A stretch of DNA of 64,000 nt. Source: Sacculina carcini. Its lineage: Eukaryota > Arthropoda > Thecostraca > Sacculinidae. The notes below the pieces were generated by a model. That model worked only from the letters and a program-made list of their open reading frames with translations. It was not told where the DNA came from and searched no databases. The stretch spans positions 3,741,550 through 3,805,549 of the forward strand of contig OU696597.1 of the NCBI GenBank assembly GCA_916048095.2. The letters are read 5' to 3'. The position numbers and the translations under genes are program-made. Each line of letters begins with the position of its first letter. The stretch's first letter is position 1. Shown here one piece after another: positions 37,086 to 64,000 of the stretch.

Positions 37086-37409
37086 GAAACATTGCAAATG
37101 TTTTGTGCAACATTTTTCGAAAGCTTTTGGCAGAAATTGTGTTACACATTCATTTTTATTTCATTTTGATGTAGTTATTTGTGTTCAAATACCTCTCATC
37201 GGGAGAAGCACCTAACGGCCAGTGAAATTATCATCGACGTGACGACAATGCCGCCGACGAAGCTGCGAGAAATTATGCTTCGGCCGGTGTCGGCCATTTC
37301 GCGCTGTACCACTTCCTCGTTTATTTCCTGCTGTATTGACGTAATACAAACACACTATTATTATTATTGCACGTCCCGCTGAAGCTCAGAAAACTTGTTG
37401 CACCTCCCA

Positions 37410-38291
37410 TTAAAGCTTTGCAAACAAATCTATATCATAAAGGTACTTGAGTATTAGTCGAATCGCGTTCGGGTGGTCAGGATGTAAAATATTGATGAGA
37501 TTAAAATGGATGCTTGTGGAGTGGCAGTAGGACCGTAAGGGTTGCCGCGAGACCTCATACAACTCGCATTCCGTGATTATATGACTACACATGAGAGGAG
37601 TTCGACAGTGTGAGCATATAGGTGGCGATGTCTTCTCCAATGAATAATTGTGTGTTATCCTAGTGCATCCCAGTCTTAGTCTCGCGATTACTCGCTGCGC
37701 TTTCCTTGGTAAATTGTCATCCAGCCATGGAGTGACTGATTTTTTTATGGCCCCAAGTGCATAATTATGCCTCTGACTGGTCCACTTTTGTTGGAAAGAC
37801 TCGCATGTAGCCGTATTCACAAGCTGTCTTATTGTCTGCTTACACGCTGGATACTTGTTAATATCGCTCGATTCCAACGCAGCTTTTGCTTCTGCATCTG
37901 CCCTCTCATTGCCCTTCAGGCCACAATGCCCTGGTATCCACACCAGTATACAGTCGTAGTTCGATGTTATACGATGTAAAACATTTAAAATTGATAAAAG
38001 TATAAAATCCGATGAAAGACTATTGGAAATGTAGACTAGTGCAGATCTCGAATCACTCAGAATTAAAGTTTTTTGTACCCGATGTTCTTCCACGTATCTC
38101 AAAGCTCTGTATATTGCGTACAGCTCAGTATTGAAAACCGTGACATATGAAGGCAGACGGAACCTTGATATGCACGCACTACCCAGCTGTTTGGTGTATA
38201 TTGCGCATCCTGACTTTCCTTTGCACTTTGATCCATCCGTATATATTTGGGCATAGTCGCTATAATGCGAAATGTACTCCGCAAACGCCAT
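37410..38291 (-). CDS. LINE RNase H and C-terminal zinc knuckle, unit 1
   Basis: A 293-residue open frame. The RNase H catalytic set is visible: AQIYTDGSK (Asp), FNTELYAIYRAL (Glu), LILSDSRSALVYI (Asp) and GLKGNERADAEAKAA (Asp), with the usual VWIPGHCG before the last. A Trp-rich linker (TPWLDDNLPRKAQRVIARLR) leads to the Cys/His motif SHCRTPLMCSHIITEC. Coding sequence of this domain extends upstream to about 38400 in the same frame (PPWYKTAPKIHF). Enzymatically it could degrade RNA in the RNA-DNA hybrid, but the RT upstream is in other frames. Unit 1 is the only copy with this frame intact, because units 2 and 3 lack one T at 37740-37746. Confidence 0.88.
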   Translation of the reverse strand: MAFAEYISHYSDYAQIYTDGSKCKGKSGCAIYTKQLGSACISRFRLPSYVTVFNTELYAIYRALRYVEEHRVQKTLILSDSRSALVYISNSLSSDFILLSILNVLHRITSNYDCILVWIPGHCGLKGNERADAEAKAALESSDINKYPACKQTIRQLVNTATCESFQQKWTSQRHNYALGAIKKSVTPWLDDNLPRKAQRVIARLRLGCTRITHNYSLEKTSPPICSHCRTPLMCSHIITECELYEVSRQPLRSYCHSTSIHFNLINILHPDHPNAIRLILKYLYDIDLFAKL

Positions 38292-38719
38292 TGAGACCTC
38301 AGTATCTGATACCTGCGCTTTGGTCGCATCCGGTAGGAAATGGATTTTTGGAGCTGTCTTGTACCAGGGCGGTATGTCGTTGTGTGAGTGAGCGCAGTTC
38401 GATGAGTCATCGCATTTGCGGGGTCGATGAACCCGTTGAACCGAAGCTCGTGAACCATTGATCCAATTTTACTGTATTGTACAGTCACTTCATCCTTCTG
38501 AAGGCTGACACCAGTTGAGGTCCTGCTAGTGAAGTCATCTGGTAGAAGGACCTTGAAGGTTACTGATTGTGAGATTTCACCGACCGTCTCTGCAGAGGCC
38601 TCTATGTCTGGAGTGCATGATATGGCAGCATGATAGCATCGCGGAGCTGGGATGCCAAGCTCCCCTCCTTTCTTTCGAAATTTCGGCATTACCCCAGTTG
38701 AACACCGGAACAATAGTGA

Positions 38720-39063
38720 GTATTGAACTTGACAACTATGATAGATGTGGAAGGTCTATGTGAATGATATCATCCACGCATCGCGCTCACTCACACAGTC
38801 GTAGACTAGGCCATTTCGGTGAGGTACTGCCACATTGAGCTCCTGAATATACTCCCTCGCTCGTCTATTAGGCACCCGCTTGGATAACTGCTTTCTGGAG
38901 GAAAAATTGGGCATGTTATCTCCGATATTTGTATAAGGATGAGCGATGTGGTTATAGCTGGTGTGTACTTTCAACGTGTAACGTAGCACGATATTCTTGC
39001 GTCGTATGCTCAGTTCTGGAAAGCCGGTATACACTCGCAGGGCCTCGACTGGTATCGTTCCTG
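38720..39063 (-). pseudogene. LINE RT connection region, unit 1
   Basis: After the RT frame ends at 39064, the minus strand continues one frame over with ALRVYTGFPELSIRRKNIVL and QLSKRVPNRRAREYI, the region between RT thumb and RNase H in I-type LINEs. The shift is explained by a local duplication of an AACAGGAACG-like word at 39060-39085. A further frame change near 38400 leads into the RNase H. Confidence 0.65.
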
Positions 39064-39678
39064 TTATTCGTTCCTGTTCCTGGCACCTGTTATCAGCCGA
39101 AGAGCCTCGTTTTGGATTGGTTCTAAAAGACTAAGAATGGAAGTGCTCGCCGATGAGTATGACTGTAGTCCATAGTCTAAAATCGATAAAATCAATGTTT
39201 TAAAAATCTTATGGAGAACGGAAACGCTCGCACCGGCGTGTTTATTCCCAGCTATAATACGTAATATGTTTAATCGCTTCTGACAGCGCACCTTCAAGTC
39301 TATTATATGTTCCCGCATTATGAGTCTTTTATCCAACACGATACCTAGAAACTTTTGTGATTGTCGGTACGGAATGATTTCGCCACCCAACCTCAATGTT
39401 TCCTGAATTTTATAACTGTCTATTGAGTATAGCACGGCCGACGACTTCAGACCAGAAAACTTCATGTGGTTTGCTTTGGCCCATAGTGCTAAAACATCTA
39501 GAGCTTCTTGAAGTTGATCGCTCATGATAGCCACGTTTTCACCTTGAATCCAAATGGCGCTGTCATCGGCGTAAATCGCATATTGGATATTTGCTGGCAT
39601 ATCGCTGAACATATCATTCACCATCAAGTTGAATAGGATTGGCGACAGACAACTTCCTTGTGGTAACCCAATATCCAT
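39064..39678 (-). CDS. LINE reverse transcriptase, C-terminal part, unit 1
   Basis: A 204-residue frame with DIGLPQGSCLSPILFNLMVN, QYAIYADDSAIWIQ carrying the catalytic YADD, then NHMKFSGLKSSAV, SQKFLGIVLDKRL and LDYGLQSYSSAS, ending LRLITGARNRNE. It is collinear and in frame with the upstream RT part (39745-40839), separated only by a TAA at 39745, so originally one polypeptide. It supplies the polymerase active site. Confidence 0.9.
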   Translation of the reverse strand: MDIGLPQGSCLSPILFNLMVNDMFSDMPANIQYAIYADDSAIWIQGENVAIMSDQLQEALDVLALWAKANHMKFSGLKSSAVLYSIDSYKIQETLRLGGEIIPYRQSQKFLGIVLDKRLIMREHIIDLKVRCQKRLNILRIIAGNKHAGASVSVLHKIFKTLILSILDYGLQSYSSASTSILSLLEPIQNEALRLITGARNRNE

Positions 39679-39744
39679 GCTATACTGGTCCGAATATATG
39701 CCTGCGAGTCGCGTTCTAAAAAATCTCCTACCTGGCAGAAAGTT

Positions 39745-40839
39745 TTATATATATTCCGCCATATTACCCCTCAAGCCCATGTCGTGTATTTTTCGCAACA
39801 ATATTCCCGGTATAACTGTATCATAAGCGTTGGTCAGATCCAGATATACGACCAGTGTACACTGCTTGTTGACAAAGCCCGTTCTTATTATATTTTCCAG
39901 CCTGACTACCGAGTCTACTGCCGATCGACTGGGACGAAATCCACTCTGATAGTGATCGAGCACATTGTTTGTCTCAAGAATGTAAGAAACTCTGGCTGTC
40001 ACCATCCTCTCAAGAAGTTTTCCCATACAACTGGTCAAGGATATTGGTCGGTATGACTTGGGAGAATCGCGGGGTTTTCCCTTCTTCAGAAGTGGTACAA
40101 TTGTTGAGTGTTTCCATGATGCAGGATAAGAATGTGTTCTCCACAAGGAATTAAAAAATGCTAAGACGTGATAAAAGGATTCAGATGATATATGTCTTAA
40201 AAAATCGTAATGTATGTTGTCTGGTCCAACCGCCGTATGGCCTGATCGGTTGATCGCTCTTTTTAATTCCAGAGGTGTAAAATCGAGATTATATTCGTAC
40301 ATGGTGGGATGATCGAAAGCGTTGTCTGGCAATTCAATCTCTAGCATTGCCGATGGTTCAATGCCGTGATATGCCTGAATACAACTTGTTCTAGCCATAT
40401 GTTCTGCCATTTTGTTGGCGACAACTTTTGGCTCGCTGATACGACTGCCCTCTATATTCAGGATTGGCGAAGCTACTGACGTCCAGCTGCCATTGAGTGC
40501 TCTGATCCCTCTCCAGATCGCTGATATAGGTGTCGATGGGGTAAAAGAGTCAATAAAATTATGCCATGCTAAAATCTTATTTCTCCTAATCACCCTCCTA
40601 GTGACGGCTCGCTCCCTACACAAGGCTATTTTCGCAGCTATCGTTTTAGTTCGCAGATAAAACCTAATTGCTCTCTTTCGTTTTGCAACCGCACAACGGC
40701 ATTCATTGTTGAACCATGGAACAGGTGTCTTTTTGGGTGGACGGCGTTTCCAAGGAATGGAGAGTCGAGCAGCAGAGATGATTTGAGTTGTTATGCTGTC
40801 GGTGCTATTGTCGACGTCTATACCATCTACTCCATCCAA
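39745..40839 (-). CDS. LINE reverse transcriptase, N-terminal part, unit 1
   Basis: A 364-residue frame. It opens with the linker after the endonuclease (KTPVPWFNNECRCAVAKRKR). RT motifs follow: ELKRAINRSGHTAVGPDNIHY, SYPASWKHSTIVPLLKKGKP, KSYRPISLTSCMGKLLERMV, DHYQSGFRPSRSAVDSVVRL and VVYLDLTNAYDTV with the first catalytic Asp. It stops at a TAA after NMAEYI, in frame with the next RT part. On the other side a TGA at 40843 separates it from the endonuclease, also in frame. Confidence 0.9.
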   Translation of the reverse strand: MDGVDGIDVDNSTDSITTQIISAARLSIPWKRRPPKKTPVPWFNNECRCAVAKRKRAIRFYLRTKTIAAKIALCRERAVTRRVIRRNKILAWHNFIDSFTPSTPISAIWRGIRALNGSWTSVASPILNIEGSRISEPKVVANKMAEHMARTSCIQAYHGIEPSAMLEIELPDNAFDHPTMYEYNLDFTPLELKRAINRSGHTAVGPDNIHYDFLRHISSESFYHVLAFFNSLWRTHSYPASWKHSTIVPLLKKGKPRDSPKSYRPISLTSCMGKLLERMVTARVSYILETNNVLDHYQSGFRPSRSAVDSVVRLENIIRTGFVNKQCTLVVYLDLTNAYDTVIPGILLRKIHDMGLRGNMAEYI

Positions 40840-40842
40840 AAC

Positions 40843-41290
40843 TCAGCATTGCCTGAAAAGAGACCAGTTTGCCTTGGCCATGTTCCATGTTGGTAGCCAT
40901 TGTTGCTGAGCAGACCTATCACCAGCTGACATTAAAATGGGGTAGTGGTCTGAATCTTGCGTATCTACGTGTACGGACCAATTCAACCACTGCGCTACTT
41001 CTGGTGAACAAATAGATAGGTCGATTGATGATGTATTAGCCGTAGAGATGTTAAAAAACGTGGAAGATCCGTCATTCAAGAGAGTCAGTGAGAAATTGGA
41101 GAAAAAATTCTCTATTGACCTGCCCTTACATGTTGTACAGTTCGATCCCCAGGTAATACTTTGCGCGTTAAAATCTCCTAAAATAAGCATCCTGTTATTC
41201 AAAGACGCCTGAACTGTTTCAAGATGTCGTGTTATTGTTTCAGCTGTAGTATCTGGTGGCAGATACGTGCTTACTACATCGTCTCGTCGT
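40843..41290 (-). pseudogene. LINE APE-type endonuclease, C-terminal part, unit 1
   Basis: In frame with the RT across a TGA. Visible: VVSTYLPPDTTAETI, RMLILGDFNAQSITWGS (the GDFNA motif), SSIDLSICSPEVA and DTQDSDHYPILMSA (the SDH catalytic motif). The N-terminal half is missing. The open frame extends upstream to 41346 through sequence belonging to the transporter exon, in a different frame from it. Confidence 0.88.
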
Positions 41291-41710
41291 CTCGTCGTCC
41301 TTTTTATCACTCTGCTCGCTACACACATCCTGCACCACAACGCCATTCATGACTTCTCGTTTTTTTTCGTCGCAACCATCAATTGCCTCGGTTTTGCTGC
41401 TGAACATGTGCTGAATTTCTTCGAGCGACTTGCCTTCAATATCGGGCACAACTGCCACCGAGAATATTGCCATCAGCGCGTGCAGCACAGCGAATACCAG
41501 AAACACACCGGCCATTCCCAGTTGCCGCAGCTGCCACTGGAACGAGTACTGCATGAGAAACGTGAACACACTGTTGAACTGGCATCATCACTACGCTGTC
41601 AGCTGGGGAACGCACACTGCTCGGCAGAATTTCGCTCGGTAAAATTGCCAACAGCGGACTGATACCCAGCGACATTAAGCTTAAATGTGTATTTTTGACC
41701 TAAGGTCAAA
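41281..41710 (-). pseudogene. Sugar transporter (MFS, Tret1-like) last exon, unit 1
   Basis: The minus strand reads MSLGISPLLAILPSEILP then SSVRSPADSV in one frame, the TM10 loop signature of SLC2-type transporters (SEI-x-P-x-x-VR). After a one-base shift near 41585 it reads FLMQYSFQWQLRQLGMAGVF, LMAIFSVAVVPDIEGKSLEE and IQHMFSS, the last membrane segments and the PE-T-KGKSLEEI signature at the start of the cytoplasmic tail. An upstream CCTTAG could be the acceptor. The tail runs into the truncated LINE. Only this exon is present, so the protein cannot function. It is oriented like every other piece of the unit. Confidence 0.78.
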
Positions 41711-41722
41711 ATCATGTTTACC
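41690..41722. other. Short palindrome near transporter exon
   Basis: TTTTGACCT-A-AGGTCAAAA, 9-bp arms with a one-base centre. It contains an everted pair of the nuclear-receptor half-site AGGTCA. Repeated in each unit. Confidence 0.6.
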
Positions 41723-41878
41723 CTCATAATGACCAAATCTCCATTTGCCCAAAATGACTATACTCTAGGGTGTGACAGTGGGCCTGTGACAGTGGGCTGT
41801 AATGAGCTGTGTAGACGCAAGAGAACCGTAATGGCTTATTATAAACGATTACGTCTACGATTACGGCTATGAGGCGGA

Positions 41879-43298
41879 CTATAGATAATTGAGAAGACGG
41901 CTGAGCTCCGAGAGAAGGCGAAGTAACCTGCGGATCACTCCAGCTTCAATCCGCGAAATCGCAGTCCCTCCCTTTCGGTTGGTCACCTCCAGCAATGGGT
42001 GCTTCAACCCACTCATCACTTCTGCGCGTGCAAATTGGAACATAGGCGAGTCCTCTCCTGCAAATGATGCAAGGCGGCTCACCAACCCCACAGCTCGGGA
42101 TATCACCAACTTGCTCAATCAAATAGAGAGCCATGGCATGAATGCATGTGTCAAGGTCGGTCAACGACATCTCTGTTAGGTTAACAAAACCAGGTAGCGT
42201 AGATGCATGTGGTGTTCCTAAGTCCACACTCTGCAAGTGCCGGGATTCCCACTGCAGCATGTGTGTAGCCCACTTATCAGCTGCGTAGTAGGCTAGACCC
42301 ACAGAGGCATCCACAATCTCTCGTGTCTCAGTGTTTTCTGCCCCGTTTACAGCTATTTCCGTAATCTGCATGCCCAACGGGAAACCGCTGTATGCTGGCT
42401 CGTCGGGGAGGTCAAAGCTAGATCGTCCTACTTCAACAGTGCATTCTTGACAGTTGAAAGATAACGCCCATTTGCCTGATATTGTTACACCATCTGCTTC
42501 CATTATGCATAGACGTGACAGCCCGCAAATATTTGACGCCTGAAAACATAGCGTGTAATCCGTCGACTGCTTTGCGAACTGAAAGGCAGTGTTTGTTATT
42601 ACAGTGCAGTGCGTGCAATAGTTGTATAGGGAGTTGATCATGGCTCCGTGCGAGGATGAGTTGTCTAGCAAGCGATGCTGGATAGATTCGCCTACAACTT
42701 TGCGCGTCACCTTGATCAAGTCTTCGACTGATACCGTTGTCTTTTCTGAGCACATCCGGAGTAAGAGAGTAGCTAGATTTGAGCTATCCCCGACCACCCA
42801 TGACAGCATGTCCGTGATTTGTTTCAAGGACGAAACCATTGATGTGCTGTCGATTATTGCTAAATTGGAGCGACGTGTGCGCATAGAAGTCAGTGATTCC
42901 ACGTAAGGCTTGTGCGGACCTCGTGTGCTGAGCTTGTTGCTCGCATCATTCACAGTGATCAGAATGGACCGACTGGGGTCTATTTGATCTGAGTCCCAGC
43001 GAGAAAGGACACATTGATCTGTTGTGCAAGGCATCGTGACGCCTTCCATGGTTATTCCCCAATACTGTTCTCAAAGTGCCTGCGCTATTGAGTTGCTGCA
43101 GGCAAACGTCGGATTCAGCAAGACAGTATCGATGCTACGTGACTCCTCATAGGACAGTCGCGCCTTCAGGTGAGCCAACAATCCATCATCCATTGTTTGC
43201 ACCATATGTCTAAAATCGGTTTCGGAAATGTCAGTCCCCTCACTTCTCTCCAGCGTCTGCCTCACCGTTCGAGAATGTATTGTTTTATGAAACAACAC
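41879..43298 (-). pseudogene. Endogenous viral element: L polymerase fragment of a non-segmented negative-strand RNA virus, unit 1
   Basis: The minus-strand frame 43298-43071 continues in frame, after one TGA at 43071-43073, into a 367-residue frame (43049-41946). A one-base shift near 42120 leads to a further 79 residues ending at 41879. Landmarks match the capping (PRNTase) region of mononegavirus L proteins: a YWGITMEGVT-x-P segment after the stop, LSWVVGDSSNLATLLLR, then the HR dipeptide in GESIQHRLLDN with a following SHGAMIN, a TH-x-x-x-x-T motif, and YTLCFQASN. The HR dipeptide is the catalytic motif of the RNA 5'-capping activity. About 470 of some 2,000 residues remain; the RdRp catalytic domain is absent, so it cannot make viral products. 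Chuvirus-like or rhabdovirus-like origin cannot be decided by eye. Confidence 0.8.
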
Positions 43299-43481
43299 GG
43301 AAATTGCAATTTTCGAATATATATATTATTCAACAAACGCTTACACCAATAAGAAATATTAGAATTCTCTCACCACACCAAAACACTCACAAGTACCACA
43401 CTACTCAAATCACTTGTCACCTTGTCGCTAACGCGCAGCGTATGACGTTTCAATTATTATTTACAATGATGCCACCTCACA
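43299..43481 (-). repeat. gypsy 3' LTR-like segment, unit 1
   Basis: On the minus strand the integrase ends within a polypurine tract (GAGGGGGAGG, 43482-43491). The DNA then starts TGTGAGGTGGCATC, as expected of a 3' LTR following a PPT. It runs about 180 bases and then meets the L-protein remnant. No matching 5' LTR is present upstream of gag, so identity as an LTR rests on position only. Confidence 0.55.
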
Positions 43482-44394
43482 CCTCCCCCTCAGTCACGAA
43501 CATAATCCGACAGGTATCGTGGAGGACGCCGTTCACGACTGCTACGACGTGGAGCTGGTGTGAGCCGCTCCACTTCAGTTTGCTGCCGGTCGTTGCTGAT
43601 GGACGGACTGATCGCTTCGCATCGCTTTCCATCTGGTTCGGTTGTTCACGTACAGATGCCTCCAGCAAAAGATGTCTTCTGTTACGCGTTGTGATGCGTC
43701 CACTTGGTGTGCGGAGTACATAGCTGCGTGGGCCTTTTATTCCCACGACGGTCCCAGTACAGTCCCACCTTTTGCTCGATTGACTTTGAATGACCACTGC
43801 ATCTCCCGCCCTCAGTCGCGGCAACGGATGCGATCCTTGATTATAAGTCAGCTGAGCTTGAACGCGACGTGGTGCATCGATGGCGTCCGCAGTACTCCTC
43901 CACTTCGGTGCAAAAGCACTACGATGCATTGGAATGGTTGATCGGATAGGGTGGCCGAATAAAATTTCCGCTGGTGATTGCCCATTTGCGCCCGGAGTGT
44001 TCCGCAATTCCAGCAAGCCTTCGGTGAAAGCGTCATCGTCGAGTTCCCCGTTAGACGTCACCTTCTGCACTAAGCGCTTGATGCGCTTGACCGCTGATTC
44101 CGCAAGACCATTCCCCTGCGGATATTCGACACTGCTCACATCATGCTGCACTTTCCAGCGCATAAGGAAGTCTCTCGTTCGGCGAGAGGTGTATTGTGGT
44201 CCACCGTCGCTGCGAAGACGGTTGGGTACGCCGAACGTTGCGAACAACTGACGCAGCGTCCGGATGAGATGTCGTGATGTGGCGTCTGACCGTGGGCATT
44301 CGGCGACACAAGGCCAGTTGTTATATCTGTCCACATATATGAGGTAAGTGCGGCCGGCGTGCTGAAAGTAGTCCGTGGCAACACTTTCAAACAC
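43477..44394 (-). CDS. Ty3/gypsy integrase core and C-terminal domain, unit 1
   Basis: A 305-residue frame, in frame with the upstream pol across a TAA at 44419-44421. The DDE core is complete: ESVATDYFQHAGRTYLIYVD (first Asp), NRLRSDGGPQYTSRRTRDF (second Asp) and SSVEYPQGNGLAESAVKRIK (Glu). After LRNTPGANGQSPAEILFGHP come a basic tail and a GDAVVIQ/RWDCTGTVV segment typical of the DNA-binding C terminus. Unlike the gypsy copies at 19-24 kb, the catalytic Glu is kept. It stops inside the polypurine tract. Confidence 0.92.
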   Translation of the reverse strand: MFESVATDYFQHAGRTYLIYVDRYNNWPCVAECPRSDATSRHLIRTLRQLFATFGVPNRLRSDGGPQYTSRRTRDFLMRWKVQHDVSSVEYPQGNGLAESAVKRIKRLVQKVTSNGELDDDAFTEGLLELRNTPGANGQSPAEILFGHPIRSTIPMHRSAFAPKWRSTADAIDAPRRVQAQLTYNQGSHPLPRLRAGDAVVIQSQSSKRWDCTGTVVGIKGPRSYVLRTPSGRITTRNRRHLLLEASVREQPNQMESDAKRSVRPSATTGSKLKWSGSHQLHVVAVVNGVLHDTCRIMFVTEGEV

Positions 44395-44418
44395 TCTGGT
44401 AGGTTGATCGTCACAATA

Positions 44419-46170
44419 TTATGGCTCTTTCGGTTGACTGTTGCGATAATGACGACATGAAGAGCATGACGATACAGCCATTTTGACATCATTTTGTATT
44501 GTCGGCCAGAATACCGACTGCCGTGCTCGACCTATAGTGCGATTCATGCCCTGGTGTCCACTATGAAGTCGGCGGATGATATCTCGTCGCATTTTACGAG
44601 GAACTACAAGACGTTTTCCGTAGAGTATCAAATTTCCGTCTACATATAATGAACTTCTGATGTTCCAGTAAGGTTTTATCTCATCTCGACAGGCGTGACG
44701 ATCATCTGGAAAGCCATGTCGAATAGCTTCTTTGAGGCAAATGCACTCCGGATCACTCATTATCGCATCTTCGATTTCAACTAGCAGGCCATCGTCAGTT
44801 ATATAGCTCTCTTCGTCGCTCTCATGCGTTAAGTGAGCCACTGCTGCAACACCAATTTCAGGAACCGGATCCAGAGTTATTTCGTCTTCTTCGCCGTCGA
44901 GCGGAGCTCGGGAGAGACAATCGGCAGCTGCGTGCTTCTTGCCAGGGCACCATGCAGCCGTAAATTGGAGATGAGCCAGCTTCGCTCGTAGCCGCTGCAA
45001 ACGAATATTGGCGATATCCGCTAGACCTTTTGAATTCAGGATTGGAAGAAGAGGTTTATGATCAGTAATGATCGTGAAATTATTCAGACCAGCGAGGTAG
45101 TTGTTAGCTTTACTGCAGGCCCATACTACAGCCAATAGCTCTTGTTCAACAGCGGCGTAGCGAGTTTCTGTATCTGAAAGTCGCCGCGAACCGCACTGGA
45201 TGAGACGCCATTTCTTGCTCTCATCTAGCTGACGTACCACAAATCCGAGTCCCTTTAGACGAGATGCATCTGTCTCCACGACAGTCTCTCGTGACGGCCG
45301 GAAGAAATCCAGTATTGGGGGAGAAGTCAGTATCTTTTTCGTTGCTTCGAAAGCGCGTGTATGAACGCTCTCCTCCCAATGCCATTCCACATCTTTCTTC
45401 AAAAGTTCGTATAATGATGCGGCGGTACCAGCAATTTCGGTCGAAAATTGTCCCAGCTGATTGGCTAACCCTAAGAATGAGCGAAGTTCGGTTAGATTAT
45501 TCGGCCTAGGAAATTCCTTGATAGCGCGAATTTTCTTTTGGTCATCCGAATATCCGTTTGGTCCCACGTCAAAACCACAAAAATGCACTTGCGATTGCGC
45601 GAAGTCAAACTTATCACCATTCAACGTTATGCCAGCAGAATCACAGCGCATTAACAACTGCCAAATGTCTTCCAGGTGACTGTCGTAGTCTTCACTGTAC
45701 ACAATCATATCATCAACCACTTTGCCAACATTCATCACACCAGCAAGAGCAGCATCGCATCTCGTGTTGTATACATCGCCGCTTGAAGCCAATCCCATGG
45801 GTGCTCTTTTTAGTCTGAAGCGACCCCATGGTGTGAGAAAACATGTTAGATCTCTATCATCTTCGTGGATGGAGATTTGAAAATAACCATTTTTAGCATC
45901 CAGTGTGCTAAAATATTTTGCTCCTGGTTTTATACTAGAGACTACATCCATGCCAGCTCTCACAGGATGAGTTGGTCGTTTCAAATACTTGTTCAGTGGT
46001 ATTAGATCGATAGTGAGTCTACAATCAACAATGGACCCTTCTCTACGCTTTGGCACGGGCACAACAGCATGACACCATTCGGTCGGGTGAGTCACAGCCT
46101 CGATGACGTCCTGTTGAAGCAGTTCATCGATGTGACGCTTCATGTATTCCCGATACGCTAGCGGTATCAC
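44419..46170 (-). CDS. pol: Ty3/gypsy pol: RT, RNase H and integrase zinc domain, unit 1
   Basis: A 583-residue frame. RT: EWCHAVVPVPKRREG, CRLTIDLIPLNKYL, YFSTLDAKNGYFQI (catalytic Asp) and GKVVDDMIVYSED (VVDD box), then FLGLANQLGQFS in the thumb. RNase H: VETDASRLKGLGFV, RYAAVEQELLAVVWA, FTIITDHKPLLPIL and CPGKKHAAADCLSR. Integrase zinc: RLHSGHQGMNRTIGRARQ, WPTIQND and SSCSSCRHY, an H-x-H-x-C-x2-C arrangement. An in-frame TAG (46195) separates it from protease and a TAA (44419) from the integrase core, so it was one polyprotein with two stops. The conserved domains show no visible missing catalytic residue. Confidence 0.93.
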   Translation of the reverse strand: MIPLAYREYMKRHIDELLQQDVIEAVTHPTEWCHAVVPVPKRREGSIVDCRLTIDLIPLNKYLKRPTHPVRAGMDVVSSIKPGAKYFSTLDAKNGYFQISIHEDDRDLTCFLTPWGRFRLKRAPMGLASSGDVYNTRCDAALAGVMNVGKVVDDMIVYSEDYDSHLEDIWQLLMRCDSAGITLNGDKFDFAQSQVHFCGFDVGPNGYSDDQKKIRAIKEFPRPNNLTELRSFLGLANQLGQFSTEIAGTAASLYELLKKDVEWHWEESVHTRAFEATKKILTSPPILDFFRPSRETVVETDASRLKGLGFVVRQLDESKKWRLIQCGSRRLSDTETRYAAVEQELLAVVWACSKANNYLAGLNNFTIITDHKPLLPILNSKGLADIANIRLQRLRAKLAHLQFTAAWCPGKKHAAADCLSRAPLDGEEDEITLDPVPEIGVAAVAHLTHESDEESYITDDGLLVEIEDAIMSDPECICLKEAIRHGFPDDRHACRDEIKPYWNIRSSLYVDGNLILYGKRLVVPRKMRRDIIRRLHSGHQGMNRTIGRARQSVFWPTIQNDVKMAVSSCSSCRHYRNSQPKEP

Positions 46171-46194
46171 TCTGGGAGCAGAAATGTGCTTGGG

Positions 46195-47403
46195 CTACGC
46201 ATCAGATGAAAGCAATATCCGCATAGGAGGTCCATCCATGGTTCGCAGTGGACCACTCGTTGAAAATACTCTCGGAAAGGCTGCTTTCAGTTCTGCAAGA
46301 TGTTGTGATCGTTCATCAAGCGTTGGGCTGCGCGTTTGCTTCCAGGTCGGACGTTTCAGGTCGATCTGGTTGTTGATTGCAGGAAGTGACTTGCGTTCGG
46401 CTTGTGCGGTTGCTTTTAGCACGATGGTCGAGTCCTCCCTTCTTTGCGTAGTTACATTCTGCACTGGAATTTGCTGTGGAAACGCTCGGTGGATGATGCG
46501 CAGGTCAACCGCGTCCACCCACGACAAAAGCGCGTCGTTCGCCGCTGGCACCACATACAATGTAGTGCTGCACGACGCATCACCGAGCTCAAGAGTGGCG
46601 GTGCAGGTGCCTATGCAGTACAGGTGCCCACCGTTGGCTGACCGGAGTCTCTCACTGCACGGGGCCAGTTCAGATTGTTTGATGCCAAGTTTTTTGGCAA
46701 CGCAAGCGTTGATAACGGATACCTCGGCGCCGGTGTCGGCGACCCACGACACTTCTGTCGATGCGCCTTTCGATGGTCTGACACGAATTTTTACGGGTGG
46801 CACTTTGCGTCGCTTCTTTTTGCCGTGGCTGATGTCACTAATCGTGATACGCCTGAGATTTGTCCCTCGACGTTTTGGTGAACGCGAAGATTTATTTTTG
46901 TTCGATCTGTTGTGTCTGCTAGAACTCCGGCACACCGCTGCAAAGTGGTTCGGTTTGCCACATACCGTGCACGTTTTGCCGGCTGCAGGACATTTGTGGG
47001 TTTGTGCTTCCACCAAACGACCGCATCTTGAACACAGTGACTTCTCAGTGGCGTGAGATGATTTGCCGCGAACATTTGACACATAAATATGTTTTTCCGG
47101 CTGCTTTATCGCCGACGAATTGACAGCAGCGGTTTCTGATGATCGACAAATAGCGACAGATTTTTCGAGAGTCAAATCCTTTTCTTGGAGCATTTGATGT
47201 AACGCATTGTCGTCAGATGTACCCATTAGAATTTTGTCGCGCAGTCTGTTGCTGTTGCATGATGTGCAGAAATCGCAGAACGACATGATTTCTTTGACAG
47301 CGCACAAAAAATCATCAAAATTCTCACCGGCTTGTTGACTACGCAGATAAAAATCACGACGGTCGAGAATTATGTTCCGCTGAGAGCGCAAGAATGACTC
47401 CAT
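46195..47403 (-). CDS. gag: Ty3/gypsy gag C-terminal part and protease, unit 1
   Basis: A 402-residue frame. It begins within what looks like the end of the capsid (NIILDRRDFYLRSQQAGENF, DDFLCAVKEI); the N-terminal half of gag is missing, so the ATG at 47403 is an internal Met. A double knuckle follows: SLCSRCGRLVEA and CTVCGKPNHFAAVC (C-x2-C-x4-H-x4-C), then a basic stretch. The protease active site is SWVADTGAEVSVI (DTGA) with the downstream VVPAANDALLSWVDAVDL flap-like part. It ends at a TAG four residues before the APR-x-IPLAYREYMK segment that opens RT, in the same frame. An importin-7-like exon replaces the missing 5' part on its right. Confidence 0.9.
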   Translation of the reverse strand: MESFLRSQRNIILDRRDFYLRSQQAGENFDDFLCAVKEIMSFCDFCTSCNSNRLRDKILMGTSDDNALHQMLQEKDLTLEKSVAICRSSETAAVNSSAIKQPEKHIYVSNVRGKSSHATEKSLCSRCGRLVEAQTHKCPAAGKTCTVCGKPNHFAAVCRSSSRHNRSNKNKSSRSPKRRGTNLRRITISDISHGKKKRRKVPPVKIRVRPSKGASTEVSWVADTGAEVSVINACVAKKLGIKQSELAPCSERLRSANGGHLYCIGTCTATLELGDASCSTTLYVVPAANDALLSWVDAVDLRIIHRAFPQQIPVQNVTTQRREDSTIVLKATAQAERKSLPAINNQIDLKRPTWKQTRSPTLDERSQHLAELKAAFPRVFSTSGPLRTMDGPPMRILLSSDA

Positions 47404-54790: not shown

Positions 54791-54814
54791 TCTGGTAGGT
54801 TGATCGTCACAATA

Positions 54815-56566
54815 TTATGGCTCTTTCGGTTGACTGTTGCGATAATGACGACATGAAGAGCATGACGATACAGCCATTTTGACATCATTTTGTATTGTCG
54901 GCCAGAATACCGACTGCCGTGCTCGACCTATAGTGCGATTCATGCCCTGGTGTCCACTATGAAGTCGGCGGATGATATCTCGTCGCATTTTACGAGGAAC
55001 TACAAGACGTTTTCCGTAGAGTATCAAATTTCCGTCTACATATAATGAACTTCTGATGTTCCAGTAAGGTTTTATCTCATCTCGACAGGCGTGACGATCA
55101 TCTGGAAAGCCATGTCGAATAGCTTCTTTGAGGCAAATGCACTCCGGATCACTCATTATCGCATCTTCGATTTCAACTAGCAGGCCATCGTCAGTTATAT
55201 AGCTCTCTTCGTCGCTCTCATGCGTTAAGTGAGCCACTGCTGCAACACCAATTTCAGGAACCGGATCCAGAGTTATTTCGTCTTCTTCGCCGTCGAGCGG
55301 AGCTCGGGAGAGACAATCGGCAGCTGCGTGCTTCTTGCCAGGGCACCATGCAGCCGTAAATTGGAGATGAGCCAGCTTCGCTCGTAGCCGCTGCAAACGA
55401 ATATTGGCGATATCCGCTAGACCTTTTGAATTCAGGATTGGAAGAAGAGGTTTATGATCAGTAATGATCGTGAAATTATTCAGACCAGCGAGGTAGTTGT
55501 TAGCTTTACTGCAGGCCCATACTACAGCCAATAGCTCTTGTTCAACAGCGGCGTAGCGAGTTTCTGTATCTGAAAGTCGCCGCGAACCGCACTGGATGAG
55601 ACGCCATTTCTTGCTCTCATCTAGCTGACGTACCACAAATCCGAGTCCCTTTAGACGAGATGCATCTGTCTCCACGACAGTCTCTCGTGACGGCCGGAAG
55701 AAATCCAGTATTGGGGGAGAAGTCAGTATCTTTTTCGTTGCTTCGAAAGCGCGTGTATGAACGCTCTCCTCCCAATGCCATTCCACATCTTTCTTCAAAA
55801 GTTCGTATAATGATGCGGCGGTACCAGCAATTTCGGTCGAAAATTGTCCCAGCTGATTGGCTAACCCTAAGAATGAGCGAAGTTCGGTTAGATTATTCGG
55901 CCTAGGAAATTCCTTGATAGCGCGAATTTTCTTTTGGTCATCCGAATATCCGTTTGGTCCCACGTCAAAACCACAAAAATGCACTTGCGATTGCGCGAAG
56001 TCAAACTTATCACCATTCAACGTTATGCCAGCAGAATCACAGCGCATTAACAACTGCCAAATGTCTTCCAGGTGACTGTCGTAGTCTTCACTGTACACAA
56101 TCATATCATCAACCACTTTGCCAACATTCATCACACCAGCAAGAGCAGCATCGCATCTCGTGTTGTATACATCGCCGCTTGAAGCCAATCCCATGGGTGC
56201 TCTTTTTAGTCTGAAGCGACCCCATGGTGTGAGAAAACATGTTAGATCTCTATCATCTTCGTGGATGGAGATTTGAAAATAACCATTTTTAGCATCCAGT
56301 GTGCTAAAATATTTTGCTCCTGGTTTTATACTAGAGACTACATCCATGCCAGCTCTCACAGGATGAGTTGGTCGTTTCAAATACTTGTTCAGTGGTATTA
56401 GATCGATAGTGAGTCTACAATCAACAATGGACCCTTCTCTACGCTTTGGCACGGGCACAACAGCATGACACCATTCGGTCGGGTGAGTCACAGCCTCGAT
56501 GACGTCCTGTTGAAGCAGTTCATCGATGTGACGCTTCATGTATTCCCGATACGCTAGCGGTATCAC
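54815..56566 (-). CDS. pol: Ty3/gypsy pol (RT, RNase H, integrase zinc), unit 2
   Basis: Protein identical to 44419-46170, with the same TAA and TAG at its ends. Confidence 0.93.
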   Translation of the reverse strand: MIPLAYREYMKRHIDELLQQDVIEAVTHPTEWCHAVVPVPKRREGSIVDCRLTIDLIPLNKYLKRPTHPVRAGMDVVSSIKPGAKYFSTLDAKNGYFQISIHEDDRDLTCFLTPWGRFRLKRAPMGLASSGDVYNTRCDAALAGVMNVGKVVDDMIVYSEDYDSHLEDIWQLLMRCDSAGITLNGDKFDFAQSQVHFCGFDVGPNGYSDDQKKIRAIKEFPRPNNLTELRSFLGLANQLGQFSTEIAGTAASLYELLKKDVEWHWEESVHTRAFEATKKILTSPPILDFFRPSRETVVETDASRLKGLGFVVRQLDESKKWRLIQCGSRRLSDTETRYAAVEQELLAVVWACSKANNYLAGLNNFTIITDHKPLLPILNSKGLADIANIRLQRLRAKLAHLQFTAAWCPGKKHAAADCLSRAPLDGEEDEITLDPVPEIGVAAVAHLTHESDEESYITDDGLLVEIEDAIMSDPECICLKEAIRHGFPDDRHACRDEIKPYWNIRSSLYVDGNLILYGKRLVVPRKMRRDIIRRLHSGHQGMNRTIGRARQSVFWPTIQNDVKMAVSSCSSCRHYRNSQPKEP

Positions 56567-56590
56567 TCTGGGAGCAGAAATGTGCTTGGG

Positions 56591-57799
56591 CTACGCATCA
56601 GATGAAAGCAATATCCGCATAGGAGGTCCATCCATGGTTCGCAGTGGACCACTCGTTGAAAATACTCTCGGAAAGGCTGCTTTCAGTTCTGCAAGATGTT
56701 GTGATCGTTCATCAAGCGTTGGGCTGCGCGTTTGCTTCCAGGTCGGACGTTTCAGGTCGATCTGGTTGTTGATTGCAGGAAGTGACTTGCGTTCGGCTTG
56801 TGCGGTTGCTTTTAGCACGATGGTCGAGTCCTCCCTTCTTTGCGTAGTTACATTCTGCACTGGAATTTGCTGTGGAAACGCTCGGTGGATGATGCGCAGG
56901 TCAACCGCGTCCACCCACGACAAAAGCGCGTCGTTCGCCGCTGGCACCACATACAATGTAGTGCTGCACGACGCATCACCGAGCTCAAGAGTGGCGGTGC
57001 AGGTGCCTATGCAGTACAGGTGCCCACCGTTGGCTGACCGGAGTCTCTCACTGCACGGGGCCAGTTCAGATTGTTTGATGCCAAGTTTTTTGGCAACGCA
57101 AGCGTTGATAACGGATACCTCGGCGCCGGTGTCGGCGACCCACGACACTTCTGTCGATGCGCCTTTCGATGGTCTGACACGAATTTTTACGGGTGGCACT
57201 TTGCGTCGCTTCTTTTTGCCGTGGCTGATGTCACTAATCGTGATACGCCTGAGATTTGTCCCTCGACGTTTTGGTGAACGCGAAGATTTATTTTTGTTCG
57301 ATCTGTTGTGTCTGCTAGAACTCCGGCACACCGCTGCAAAGTGGTTCGGTTTGCCACATACCGTGCACGTTTTGCCGGCTGCAGGACATTTGTGGGTTTG
57401 TGCTTCCACCAAACGACCGCATCTTGAACACAGTGACTTCTCAGTGGCGTGAGATGATTTGCCGCGAACATTTGACACATAAATATGTTTTTCCGGCTGC
57501 TTTATCGCCGACGAATTGACAGCAGCGGTTTCTGATGATCGACAAATAGCGACAGATTTTTCGAGAGTCAAATCCTTTTCTTGGAGCATTTGATGTAACG
57601 CATTGTCGTCAGATGTACCCATTAGAATTTTGTCGCGCAGTCTGTTGCTGTTGCATGATGTGCAGAAATCGCAGAACGACATGATTTCTTTGACAGCGCA
57701 CAAAAAATCATCAAAATTCTCACCGGCTTGTTGACTACGCAGATAAAAATCACGACGGTCGAGAATTATGTTCCGCTGAGAGCGCAAGAATGACTCCAT
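56591..57799 (-). CDS. gag: Ty3/gypsy gag C-terminal part and protease, unit 2
   Basis: Protein identical to 46195-47403. The 69-bp deletion lies just upstream of its first Met, so gag is only 7 bases from the importin-like exon here. Confidence 0.9.
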   Translation of the reverse strand: MESFLRSQRNIILDRRDFYLRSQQAGENFDDFLCAVKEIMSFCDFCTSCNSNRLRDKILMGTSDDNALHQMLQEKDLTLEKSVAICRSSETAAVNSSAIKQPEKHIYVSNVRGKSSHATEKSLCSRCGRLVEAQTHKCPAAGKTCTVCGKPNHFAAVCRSSSRHNRSNKNKSSRSPKRRGTNLRRITISDISHGKKKRRKVPPVKIRVRPSKGASTEVSWVADTGAEVSVINACVAKKLGIKQSELAPCSERLRSANGGHLYCIGTCTATLELGDASCSTTLYVVPAANDALLSWVDAVDLRIIHRAFPQQIPVQNVTTQRREDSTIVLKATAQAERKSLPAINNQIDLKRPTWKQTRSPTLDERSQHLAELKAAFPRVFSTSGPLRTMDGPPMRILLSSDA

Positions 57800-57806
57800 T
57801 TTCGAA

Positions 57807-57990
57807 CATCGGGCGCGTGCACGGTGACATCAATAATGGCGTGGCGGATGATGGCGCGATCTTGCTCGTGAATGCTGAATGCTGAATCGACCGCGCCGCC
57901 GCTCGTCACCGCCGTCTTCTCGGCCGGGGCCGTCCAGCTTTTGGTGATCATATTTTTTAGATAGACGGCGCCCGAGTGGCGTGTGGCAGT
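57807..57990 (-). pseudogene. IPO7: Importin-7-like exon fragment, unit 2/3 junction
   Basis: As 47470-47663, but the 69-bp deletion removes the bases after VHAPDV, and the frame continues into non-importin sequence (RKWSHSCALSGT) before a stop. Confidence 0.78.
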
Positions 57991-58133
57991 CTCAGTCAGC
58001 GCTTCGGCCGGTGTCGGCCATTTCGCGCTGTACCACTTCCTCGTTTATTTCCTGCTGTATTGACGTAATACAAACACACTATTATTATTATTGCACGTCC
58101 CGCTGAAGCTCAGAAAACTTGTTGCACCTCCCA

Positions 58134-59014
58134 TTAAAGCTTTGCAAACAAATCTATATCATAAAGGTACTTGAGTATTAGTCGAATCGCGTTCGGGTGG
58201 TCAGGATGTAAAATATTGATGAGATTAAAATGGATGCTTGTGGAGTGGCAGTAGGACCGTAAGGGTTGCCGCGAGACCTCATACAACTCGCATTCCGTGA
58301 TTATATGGCTACACATGAGAGGAGTTCGACAGTGTGAGCATATAGGTGGCGATGTCTTCTCCAATGAATAATTGTGTGTTATCCTAGTGCATCCCAGTCT
58401 TAGTCTCGCGATTACTCGCTGCGCTTTCCTTGGTAAATTGTCATCCAGCCATGGAGTGACTGATTTTTTATGGCCCCAAGTGCATAATTATGCCTCTGAC
58501 TGGTCCACTTTTGTTGGAAAGACTCGCATGTAGCCGTATTCACAAGCTGTCTTATTGTCTGCTTACACGCTGGATACTTGTTAATATCGCTCGATTCCAA
58601 CGCAGCTTTTGCTTCTGCATCTGCCCTCTCATTGCCCTTCAGGCCACAATGCCCTGGTATCCACACCAGTATACAGTCGTAGTTCGATGTTATACGATGT
58701 AAAACATTTAAAATTGATAAAAGTATAAAATCCGATGAAAGACTATTGGAAATGTAGACTAGTGCAGATCTCGAATCACTCAGAATTAAAGTTTTTTGTA
58801 CCCGATGTTCTTCCACGTATCTCAAAGCTCTGTATATTGCGTACAGCTCAGTATTGAAAACCGTGACATATGAAGGCAGACGGAACCTTGATATGCACGC
58901 ACTACCCAGCTGTTTGGTGTATATTGCGCATCCTGACTTTCCTTTGCACTTTGATCCATCCGTATATATTTGGGCATAGTCGCTATAATGCGAAATGTAC
59001 TCCGCAAACGCCAT
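58134..59014 (-). pseudogene. LINE RNase H, frameshifted, unit 3
   Basis: Same frameshift as in unit 2. Catalytic residues lie in the first part (59014-58412). Confidence 0.9.
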
Positions 59015-59786
59015 TGAGACCTCAGTATCTGATACCTGCGCTTTGGTCGCATCCGGTAGGAAATGGATTTTTGGAGCTGTCTTGTACCAGGGCGGTATGT
59101 CGTTGTGTGAGTGAGCGCAGTTCGATGAGTCATCGCATTTGCGGGGTCGATGAACCCGTTGAACCGAAGCTCGTGAACCATTGATCCAATTTTACTGTAT
59201 TGTACAGTCACTTCATCCTTCTGAAGGCTGACACCAGTTGAGGTCCTGCTAGTGAAGTCATCTGGTAGAAGGACCTTGAAGGTTACTGATTGTGAGATTT
59301 CACCGACCGTCTCTGCAGAGGCCTCTATGTCTGGAGTGCATGATATGGCAGCATGATAGCATCGCGGAGCTGGGATGCCAAGCTCCCCTCCTTTCTTTCG
59401 AAATTTCGGCATTACCCCAGTTGAACACCGGAACAATAGTGAGTATTGAACTTGACAACTATGATAGATGTGGAAGGTCTATGTGAATGATATCATCCAC
59501 GCATCGCGCTCACTCACACAGTCGTAGACTAGGCCATTTCGGTGAGGTACTGCCACATTGAGCTCCTGAATATACTCCCTCGCTCGTCTATTAGGCACCC
59601 GCTTGGATAACTGCTTTCTGGAGGAAAAATTGGGCATGTTATCTCCGATATTTGTATAAGGATGAGCGATGTGGTTATAGCTGGTGTGTACTTTCAACGT
59701 GTAACGTAGCACGATATTCTTGCGTCGTATGCTCAGTTCTGGAAAGCCGGTATACACTCGCAGGGCCTCGACTGGTATCGTTCCTG

Positions 59787-60401
59787 TTATTCGTTCCTGT
59801 TCCTGGCACCTGTTATCAGCCGAAGAGCCTCGTTTTGGATTGGTTCTAAAAGACTAAGAATGGAAGTGCTCGCCGATGAGTATGACTGTAGTCCATAGTC
59901 TAAAATCGATAAAATCAATGTTTTAAAAATCTTATGGAGAACGGAAACGCTCGCACCGGCGTGTTTATTCCCAGCTATAATACGTAATATGTTTAATCGC
60001 TTCTGACAGCGCACCTTCAAGTCTATTATATGTTCCCGCATTATGAGTCTTTTATCCAACACGATACCTAGAAACTTTTGTGATTGTCGGTACGGAATGA
60101 TTTCGCCACCCAACCTCAATGTTTCCTGAATTTTATAACTGTCTATTGAGTATAGCACGGCCGACGACTTCAGACCAGAAAACTTCATGTGGTTTGCTTT
60201 GGCCCATAGTGCTAAAACATCTAGAGCTTCTTGAAGTTGATCGCTCATGATAGCCACGTTTTCACCTTGAATCCAAATGGCGCTGTCATCGGCGTAAATC
60301 GCATATTGGATATTTGCTGGCATATCGCTGAACATATCATTCACCATCAAGTTGAATAGGATTGGCGACAGACAACTTCCTTGTGGTAACCCAATATCCA
60401 T
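59787..60401 (-). CDS. LINE reverse transcriptase, C-terminal part, unit 3
   Basis: Protein identical to the unit 1 copy, with YADD. Confidence 0.9.
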   Translation of the reverse strand: MDIGLPQGSCLSPILFNLMVNDMFSDMPANIQYAIYADDSAIWIQGENVAIMSDQLQEALDVLALWAKANHMKFSGLKSSAVLYSIDSYKIQETLRLGGEIIPYRQSQKFLGIVLDKRLIMREHIIDLKVRCQKRLNILRIIAGNKHAGASVSVLHKIFKTLILSILDYGLQSYSSASTSILSLLEPIQNEALRLITGARNRNE

Positions 60402-60467
60402 GCTATACTGGTCCGAATATATGCCTGCGAGTCGCGTTCTAAAAAATCTCCTACCTGGCAGAAAGTT

Positions 60468-61562
60468 TTATATATATTCCGCCATATTACCCCTCAAGCC
60501 CATGTCGTGTATTTTTCGCAACAATATTCCCGGTATAACTGTATCATAAGCGTTGGTCAGATCCAGATATACGACCAGTGTACACTGCTTGTTGACAAAG
60601 CCCGTTCTTATTATATTTTCCAGCCTGACTACCGAGTCTACTGCCGATCGACTGGGACGAAATCCACTCTGATAGTGATCGAGCACATTGTTTGTCTCAA
60701 GAATGTAAGAAACTCTGGCTGTCACCATCCTCTCAAGAAGTTTTCCCATACAACTGGTCAAGGATATTGGTCGGTATGACTTGGGAGAATCGCGGGGTTT
60801 TCCCTTCTTCAGAAGTGGTACAATTGTTGAGTGTTTCCATGATGCAGGATAAGAATGTGTTCTCCACAAGGAATTAAAAAATGCTAAGACGTGATAAAAG
60901 GATTCAGATGATATATGTCTTAAAAAATCGTAATGTATGTTGTCTGGTCCAACCGCCGTATGGCCTGATCGGTTGATCGCTCTTTTTAATTCCAGAGGTG
61001 TAAAATCGAGATTATATTCGTACATGGTGGGATGATCGAAAGCGTTGTCTGGCAATTCAATCTCTAGCATTGCCGATGGTTCAATGCCGTGATATGCCTG
61101 AATACAACTTGTTCTAGCCATATGTTCTGCCATTTTGTTGGCGACAACTTTTGGCTCGCTGATACGACTGCCCTCTATATTCAGGATTGGCGAAGCTACT
61201 GACGTCCAGCTGCCATTGAGTGCTCTGATCCCTCTCCAGATCGCTGATATAGGTGTCGATGGGGTAAAAGAGTCAATAAAATTATGCCATGCTAAAATCT
61301 TATTTCTCCTAATCACCCTCCTAGTGACGGCTCGCTCCCTACACAAGGCTATTTTCGCAGCTATCGTTTTAGTTCGCAGATAAAACCTAATTGCTCTCTT
61401 TCGTTTTGCAACCGCACAACGGCATTCATTGTTGAACCATGGAACAGGTGTCTTTTTGGGTGGACGGCGTTTCCAAGGAATGGAGAGTCGAGCAGCAGAG
61501 ATGATTTGAGTTGTTATGCTGTCGGTGCTATTGTCGACGTCTATACCATCTACTCCATCCAA
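60468..61562 (-). CDS. LINE reverse transcriptase, N-terminal part, unit 3
   Basis: Protein identical to the unit 1 copy. Confidence 0.9.
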   Translation of the reverse strand: MDGVDGIDVDNSTDSITTQIISAARLSIPWKRRPPKKTPVPWFNNECRCAVAKRKRAIRFYLRTKTIAAKIALCRERAVTRRVIRRNKILAWHNFIDSFTPSTPISAIWRGIRALNGSWTSVASPILNIEGSRISEPKVVANKMAEHMARTSCIQAYHGIEPSAMLEIELPDNAFDHPTMYEYNLDFTPLELKRAINRSGHTAVGPDNIHYDFLRHISSESFYHVLAFFNSLWRTHSYPASWKHSTIVPLLKKGKPRDSPKSYRPISLTSCMGKLLERMVTARVSYILETNNVLDHYQSGFRPSRSAVDSVVRLENIIRTGFVNKQCTLVVYLDLTNAYDTVIPGILLRKIHDMGLRGNMAEYI

Positions 61563-61565
61563 AAC

Positions 61566-62013
61566 TCAGCATTGCCTGAAAAGAGACCAGTTTGCCTTGG
61601 CCATGTTCCATGTTGGTAGCCATTGTTGCTGAGCAGACCTATCACCAGCTGACATTAAAATGGGGTAGTGGTCTGAATCTTGCGTATCTACGTGTACGGA
61701 CCAATTCAACCACTGCGCTACTTCTGGTGAACAAATAGATAGGTCGATTGATGATGTATTAGCCGTAGAGATGTTAAAAAACGTGGAAGATCCGTCATTC
61801 AAGAGAGTCAGTGAGAAATTGGAGAAAAAATTCTCTATTGACCTGCCCTTACATGTTGTACAGTTCGATCCCCAGGTAATACTTTGCGCGTTAAAATCTC
61901 CTAAAATAAGCATCCTGTTATTCAAAGACGCCTGAACTGTTTCAAGATGTCGTGTTATTGTTTCAGCTGTAGTATCTGGTGGCAGATACGTGCTTACTAC
62001 ATCGTCTCGTCGT
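61566..62013 (-). pseudogene. LINE endonuclease C-terminal part, unit 3
   Basis: Protein identical to the unit 1 copy. Confidence 0.88.
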
Positions 62014-62433
62014 CTCGTCGTCCTTTTTATCACTCTGCTCGCTACACACATCCTGCACCACAACGCCATTCATGACTTCTCGTTTTTTTTCGTCGCAACC
62101 ATCAATTGCCTCGGTTTTGCTGCTGAACATGTGCTGAATTTCTTCGAGCGACTTGCCTTCAATATCGGGCACAACTGCCACCGAGAATATTGCCATCAGC
62201 GCGTGCAGCACAGCGAATACCAGAAACACACCGGCCATTCCCAGTTGCCGCAGCTGCCACTGGAACGAGTACTGCATGAGAAACGTGAACACACTGTTGA
62301 ACTGGCATCATCACTACGCTGTCAGCTGGGGAACGCACACTGCTCGGCAGAATTTCGCTCGGTAAAATTGCCAACAGCGGACTGATACCCAGCGACATTA
62401 AGCTTAAATGTGTATTTTTGACCTAAGGTCAAA
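62004..62433 (-). pseudogene. Sugar transporter last exon, unit 3
   Basis: Same as 41281-41710, including the frameshift. Confidence 0.78.
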
Positions 62434-62601
62434 ATCATGTTTACCCTCATAATGACCAAATCTCCATTTGCCCAAAATGACTATACTCTAGGGTGTGACA
62501 GTGGGCCTGTGACAGTGGGCTGTAATGAGCTGTGTAGACGCAAGAGAACCGTAATGGCTTATTATAAACGATTACGTCTACGATTACGGCTATGAGGCGG
62601 A

Positions 62602-64000
62602 CTATAGATAATTGAGAAGACGGCTGAGCTCCGAGAGAAGGCGAAGTAACCTGCGGATCACTCCAGCTTCAATCCGCGAAATCGCAGTCCCTCCCTTTCG
62701 GTTGGTCACCTCCAGCAATGGGTGCTTCAACCCACTCATCACTTCTGCGCGTGCAAATTGGAACATAGGCGAGTCCTCTCCTGCAAATGATGCAAGGCGG
62801 CTCACCAACCCCACAGCTCGGGATATCACCAACTTGCTCAATCAAATAGAGAGCCATGGCATGAATGCATGTGTCAAGGTCGGTCAACGACATCTCTGTT
62901 AGGTTAACAAAACCAGGTAGCGTAGATGCATGTGGTGTTCCTAAGTCCACACTCTGCAAGTGCCGGGATTCCCACTGCAGCATGTGTGTAGCCCACTTAT
63001 CAGCTGCGTAGTAGGCTAGACCCACAGAGGCATCCACAATCTCTCGTGTCTCAGTGTTTTCTGCCCCGTTTACAGCTATTTCCGTAATCTGCATGCCCAA
63101 CGGGAAACCGCTGTATGCTGGCTCGTCGGGGAGGTCAAAGCTAGATCGTCCTACTTCAACAGTGCATTCTTGACAGTTGAAAGATAACGCCCATTTGCCT
63201 GATATTGTTACACCATCTGCTTCCATTATGCATAGACGTGACAGCCCGCAAATATTTGACGCCTGAAAACATAGCGTGTAATCCGTCGACTGCTTTGCGA
63301 ACTGAAAGGCAGTGTTTGTTATTACAGTGCAGTGCGTGCAATAGTTGTATAGGGAGTTGATCATGGCTCCGTGCGAGGATGAGTTGTCTAGCAAGCGATG
63401 CTGGATAGATTCGCCTACAACTTTGCGCGTCACCTTGATCAAGTCTTCGACTGATACCGTTGTCTTTTCTGAGCACATCCGGAGTAAGAGAGTAGCTAGA
63501 TTTGAGCTATCCCCGACCACCCATGACAGCATGTCCGTGATTTGTTTCAAGGACGAAACCATTGATGTGCTGTCGATTATTGCTAAATTGGAGCGACGTG
63601 TGCGCATAGAAGTCAGTGATTCCACGTAAGGCTTGTGCGGACCTCGTGTGCTGAGCTTGTTGCTCGCATCATTCACAGTGATCAGAATGGACCGACTGGG
63701 GTCTATTTGATCTGAGTCCCAGCGAGAAAGGACACATTGATCTGTTGTGCAAGGCATCGTGACGCCTTCCATGGTTATTCCCCAATACTGTTCTCAAAGT
63801 GCCTGCGCTATTGAGTTGCTGCAGGCAAACGTCGGATTCAGCAAGACAGTATCGATGCTACGTGACTCCTCATAGGACAGTCGCGCCTTCAGGTGAGCCA
63901 ACAATCCATCATCCATTGTTTGCACCATATGTCTAAAATCGGTTTCGGAAATGTCAGTCCCCTCACTTCTCTCCAGCGTCTGCCTCACCGTTCGAGAATG
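62602..64000 (-). pseudogene. Endogenous viral L polymerase fragment, unit 3 (cut by window end)
   Basis: Same as 41879-43298, with the TGA at 63794-63796. The upstream end is outside the window. Confidence 0.8.

Follow-up and report, generated by a model that had tools for sequence, protein, structure and literature searches.

Tandem arrays of endogenous viral elements (EVEs), and centromeric EVEs, are known in plants, as described for endogenous caulimovirids (PMC10377300). In Drosophila melanogaster, the Sdic family is present as six copies that occupy about 46 kb of the reference (PMC7475035), and the Suppressor of Stellate repeats of the Drosophila Y chromosome form a composite tandem unit that combines host-gene homology with a transposon insertion (PMC9031259). 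The array described here, array A, is built from a composite unit of the same kind, although Suppressor of Stellate is presented in that report as a piRNA source of over 500 copies. It lies in the window, the whole stretch of 64,000 nucleotides that was analysed (C31:3741550-3805549), on C31, the contig that carries it in an assembly of 264 Mb and 43 contigs.

Within the window, array A has two 10.4-kb units in full, followed by 6.0 kb from the start of a third (Table 1). It continues past the window and stops at equivalent position 71657 (7.7 kb beyond), giving 3.3 units in 34.4 kb, or three full units and one partial unit. The units stand head to tail at more than 99% identity in a constant order, which on the plus strand reads LINE, transporter fragment, 157-bp repeat, viral L, gypsy and importin exon; all coding parts read on the minus strand. 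Repeats of ten kb at over 99.9% identity cannot be chance. The initial annotation had described three successive units, two of them complete, with a sharp start and the same internal order, differing by a few substitutions, a T-run and a 69-bp deletion, and all of this is borne out. Two substitutions separate A1 from A2 (in 10327 bp), A1 from A3 (10391 bp) and A2 from A3 (10322 bp). Unit A1 carries one extra T in the T-run at 37740. A deletion of 69 bp in A2, at the equivalent of about 47410-47478, spans the gypsy/importin joint, and A3 lacks 5 bp at equivalent position 45372. These private differences, along with 6-7 substitutions in the partial unit A4, argue against an assembler having repeated one real copy, a reading that the annotation had allowed for and that the near-identity of A1 to A3 would suit. 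A search of the assembly for further units also recovered a separate, inverted array with indels of its own, array B, on the same contig. Judged from the sequence evidence, assembly duplication is highly improbable; array A looks real in the assembly, and appears to be young and satellite-like. It is larger than first described, since it runs past the window and is accompanied by a second array.

Table 1. Features of array A and its surroundings. Positions are those of the window; equivalent positions continue beyond its end.
Feature	Position	Strand	Remarks
Left flank of array A	8576..33587	.	inverted beside array B at C31:3256290-3235758
Part of tandem repeat X	34163..37265	.	interrupted by array A, resumes at equivalent 71659
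Unit A1	37277..47673	-	complete, 10397 bp
LINE in A1, 5'-truncated	37277..41289 (upper border approximate)	-	endonuclease, RT and RNaseH domains (Pfam)
417-bp insertion inside LINE	38381..38797	.	15-bp perfect terminal inverted repeats, GTCGT target duplication
Sugar-transporter gene fragment	41290..41683	-	Sugar_tr 4.4e-8 (Pfam)
157-bp repeat	41699..41855	.	also in neighbouring tandem repeats of C31 (97%)
Mononegavirus L fragment, broken	41901..43275 (lower border approximate)	-	mRNA-capping region, Mononeg_mRNAcap 6.9e-25 (Pfam)
Gypsy element, truncated at 5' side	43276..47437	-	protease, RT, RNaseH, integrase (Pfam)
Importin-7-like exon fragment	47438..47673	-	IBN_N 9.9e-9 (Pfam)
Unit A2	47674..58000	-	complete, 10327 bp; 69-bp deletion
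Unit A3, first 6000 bp	58001..64000	-	full unit 10391 bp; runs on outside window to equivalent 68391
Partial unit A4	equivalent 68392-71657, outside window		3266 bp

Pfam domains confirm the multi-source composition first read from the letters, an importin-7-like exon, a gypsy element, a viral L fragment, a transporter fragment and a LINE, all on the minus strand. The 3' end of the LINE falls exactly at 37277, and a LINE copy on contig C2 begins at the same point. The same point is the left edge of array A, a coincidence that the mechanism favoured below leaves unexplained. The 417-bp insertion is an array-specific variant, present in all four A units, in none of the three informative B units, and absent from the one C2 LINE copy read. 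Searched with 412 of its 417 bases, it gave only 68-bp partial matches elsewhere among 40 scored of 70 candidates; on these matches and its 15-bp inverted ends, a solo LTR is no more than one candidate for its class. At C35:7193191, an open frame of 617 codons has 94% identity to the transporter fragment across 394 bp. A shared stretch at the LINE/transporter joint was not kept as microhomology, because it is the start of the transporter match. The gypsy element has 13 copies on 11 other contigs that, at 96-99%, span 4160 or more of its 4162 bases (40 of 123 candidates scored), and the scored matches include more diverged and partial copies as well. Of 20 matches to the importin fragment, 19, some of them partial, are on C31, and the remaining one, at 85%, is on C9; C31 also carries 12 of the 21 IBN_N domain matches of the genome. 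No match was found in the window by Rfam (gathering threshold) or by a tRNA scan. Whole-unit copies dispersed at unrelated sites were absent from the scored matches, where the whole unit, like the transporter-L and importin-L neighbourhoods, was seen only in arrays A and B. On the matches scored, a new composite transposon is therefore rejected, in keeping with the earlier remark that the cassette is no known transposon type.

The viral component is an endogenous mononegavirus L fragment, with L domain homology inside host DNA. Its best match to PDB L proteins is at 3.8e-7, and the piece carried by the unit itself matches residues 1006-1233 of a 1711-residue L (4.9e-7). When 40 of 66 candidates in the assembly were scored, 23 proved to be L and the other 17 gypsy ends only. 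Nine of the 23 are on C31 (seven of them in arrays A and B), and 14 lie elsewhere at 66-83%; two L pieces on C31 near 4.06 Mb are 99-100% identical. At C10:8766295-8774982, a diverged (83%) L copy is found whose 306-bp end is present three times there, and this EVE seems to have been locally duplicated as well. A protein search with the L piece yielded 2523 word-sharing candidates, none at E <= 0.001, and a search of viral contigs gave three pattern hits, none of them a relative.

Array B consists of the same unit, inverted on the same contig about 0.54 Mb from array A (C31:3235760-3200678), and holds two complete units of 9967 bp each. It begins inside the transporter fragment, where the flank at equivalent 33587 joins directly to 41491. 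By eye, CGA is common to both sides of this left joint, which is consistent with a deletion. Unit B2 is shorter than A1 by 422 bp, made up of the 417-bp insertion and its 5-bp target duplication, and by a further 8 bp in small indels. The gypsy element is present in all three informative A units and in three of the four informative B units. In the last, edge unit of array B it is missing, and 877 bp of further L stand in its place; an open reading frame across this part matches residues 794-968 of the 1711-residue L (2.9e-5), adjoining the match at 1006-1233. The gypsy thus probably preceded the separation of the arrays, and it probably did not reach, or was lost from, the B edge unit. The 417-bp insertion, by its distribution over the A units, the informative B units and the C2 copy, would have come after the separation and spread through array A. 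Outside the arrays, the shared flanks align in five pieces at 94.4-99.2%, while the arrays themselves are about 99.4% identical. Since the flanks are less alike than the arrays, the two arrays may have exchanged sequence after the flanks separated, and a single inverted duplication would be insufficient without such later exchange.

Full units differ by 2 substitutions per about 10.3 kb within array A and by 3 in 9967 between B2 and B3, against 50-53 per about 9.9 kb between full A and B units. Counted part by part, A1 and B2 are 0.36-0.83% apart, except in the importin fragment, at 2.1% (5/236). Of the four edge units tested, three stand out from the inner units by higher divergence: A4 with 6-7 substitutions in 3266 bp, B1 with 6-9 in 6176 (9 in 1785 against B4) and B4 with 9-10 in 5563. 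A1 does not. Pooled over these non-independent comparisons, the lowest edge counts give 21/15005 against 5/20294 for inner units when A1 is taken as inner (Fisher p = 8.9e-5), and p = 0.004, again from non-independent comparisons, when A1 is taken as an edge. Unit B5, which was misaligned and showed 138-147 mismatches against most units, was excluded from every divergence count; its pieces are 97.5-99.3% identical by BLAST.

The initial annotation had suggested that a multi-source cassette was amplified recently and in satellite-like fashion, through either unequal exchange or rolling-circle capture of a circular DNA, and such an amplification is supported. The site of array A bears on the second of these. 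An uninterrupted copy of repeat X (C31:2565300-2572800) aligns with the window as far as 37263 and once more from equivalent 71659 onward, so that array A replaces about 1.7 kb of X, with about 11 bp of other sequence between X and the LINE end. A concatemer of the unit, formed by rolling-circle replication or from an extrachromosomal circle and inserted into X in a single event, would leave just such a discrete block of almost identical units A1 to A3, and would also fit the lack of an edge effect in A1. Such a burst would not lead one to expect the diverged A4, B1 and B4, or an edge unit without the gypsy, and the array-wide 417-bp insertion would require a second burst. An origin of the arrays in one such event is unlikely, although a rolling circle could have supplied the first few copies. 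Of the two routes, unequal exchange is favoured, because insertions have spread per array, the gypsy is missing from one edge unit and divergence is raised in three of the four edges tested.

Exchange or conversion within each array would account most simply for the markers and the divergence, and the locus probably formed by tandem duplication, with unequal exchange and/or gene conversion acting later within each array. From the observed units, markers, second array and interrupted target repeat, we infer the following order. Fragments of an importin-7 exon, of viral L and of a transporter gene would have come together with a LINE by chance as a chimera in a repeat-rich zone, and the chimera would then have been tandemly duplicated. 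A local deletion would have accompanied the entry of a gypsy element into one copy, and the arrays would have grown and become homogeneous through unequal exchange and/or gene conversion. The array-bearing segment would have been copied in inverted orientation about 0.54 Mb away, after which each array would have been homogenised on its own. The insertions can serve as time layers, with the gypsy before and the 417-bp insertion after array separation, and from them one may trace, unit by unit, how a variant moves through a tandem array.

The surroundings of the arrays are themselves rich in repeats. Local duplicates (at least 1 kb, 95% identity) make up 78457 of 164000 bases around array A and 33846 of 80000 around array B. 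When 40 of 925 candidates for block 18200-19700 were scored, 20 were full-length (12 plus, 8 minus), all on C31 between 2.2 and 4.64 Mb; the others were three partial matches on C31 and 17 elsewhere that cover only the last 0.6 kb. A 3.7-kb tandem duplication at window 17701-25415 (96.6%) is part of this block of at least 20 copies on C31. For a piece beside an importin copy at 2.8 Mb, 40 of 361 candidates were scored, and all 67 matches fall on C31; among the matches scored, sequence adjoining the importin fragments at 2.8 Mb is found in 19 copies with a 2.3-kb period at C31:2597042-2639451. Importin-fragment copies in the zone are spaced 7-9.6 kb apart. The composite arrays of this zone of about 2.4 Mb look specific to C31 among the matches scored. 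TTAGG repeats are abundant in the assembly, with 9572 and 10209 hits where the reversed control gives 2 and 0, a pattern that would suit an insect; neither 200-bp end of C31 is telomeric TTAGG. The window also carries a transposase fragment at 30709-31272 (Transposase_1, 1.4e-22). Outside it, at about 3.706-3.716 Mb of C31 (L026:4672-9999, L025:965-4224), separate open reading frames encode DNA polymerase B, poxvirus A32-like ATPase, integrase and adenovirus-type protease domains, and presumably belong to a Polinton/Maverick-like element.

A function has to be weighed for these arrays, namely that arrays of viral and host-gene fragments give rise to small RNAs as a piRNA cluster, with copy number selected upward. 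The viral L and the putatively virus-like X are both amplified on C31; for X part 36200-37000, 18 of 24 matches are there (all on the plus strand, 97-100%), the other six, at 67-76%, being on C15, C4, C26 and C19. All five unit parts share one strand, for which chance would give 1 in 16, and the transporter fragment has a 115-bp exact run in common with its C35 relative. The viral identity of X is without database support, however: three X open reading frames, including window 36206-37141 and downstream X, matched no Pfam family over the cut-off, and are only possibly virus-derived. The strand bias, moreover, fails across the contig, array B being inverted. A functional cluster of this kind is very unlikely. 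A broader conjecture, that C31 from about 2.2 to 4.64 Mb might be a piRNA-producing or centromeric domain that actively amplifies RNA-virus fragments in composite tandem units, the antiviral or silencing dose following copy number, is also unlikely, if slightly less so.

Within-array recombination aside, several described systems share features with this locus. Expanding tandem arrays tied to transposable elements and complex recombination are reported for rye heterochromatin, where satellite monomers take the place of the long composite units seen here (PMC4857426). The predicted centromeres on chromosome 3 of Formica selysi are likewise megabase zones dense in self-alignments, transposable elements and tandem repeats (PMC13251583), and the zone on C31 resembles them in its repeat density. 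Ant EVEs include polymerase-type Mono-Chu elements comparable to the L fragment, although the word 'tandem' is absent from the main text of that paper (PMC6540820). The literature covered, which took in few subscription papers, describes plant EVE arrays; no composite tandem array with an insect RNA-virus fragment turned up in it. The caulimovirids are plant pararetroviruses (PMC10377300), unlike the RNA-virus gene fragment joined here to host exons and transposable elements. In Sdic, a chimera made from parts of two host genes recurs in a short tandem array shaped by unequal exchange, gene conversion and differential insertion of transposable elements; annotated Sdic copies keep protein-coding potential (PMC7475035), whereas the parts of the present unit are truncated or broken and include a viral fragment. 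The locus is best explained by known processes, and what is unusual is that the unit includes a viral fragment and that such arrays are so dense on a single contig. A non-retroviral RNA-virus fragment that became part of a satellite-like unit offers one route by which related EVE copies may accumulate in a species. The array joins features of EVE arrays, chimeric host-gene arrays and host-plus-transposon arrays with a fragment of an RNA virus.
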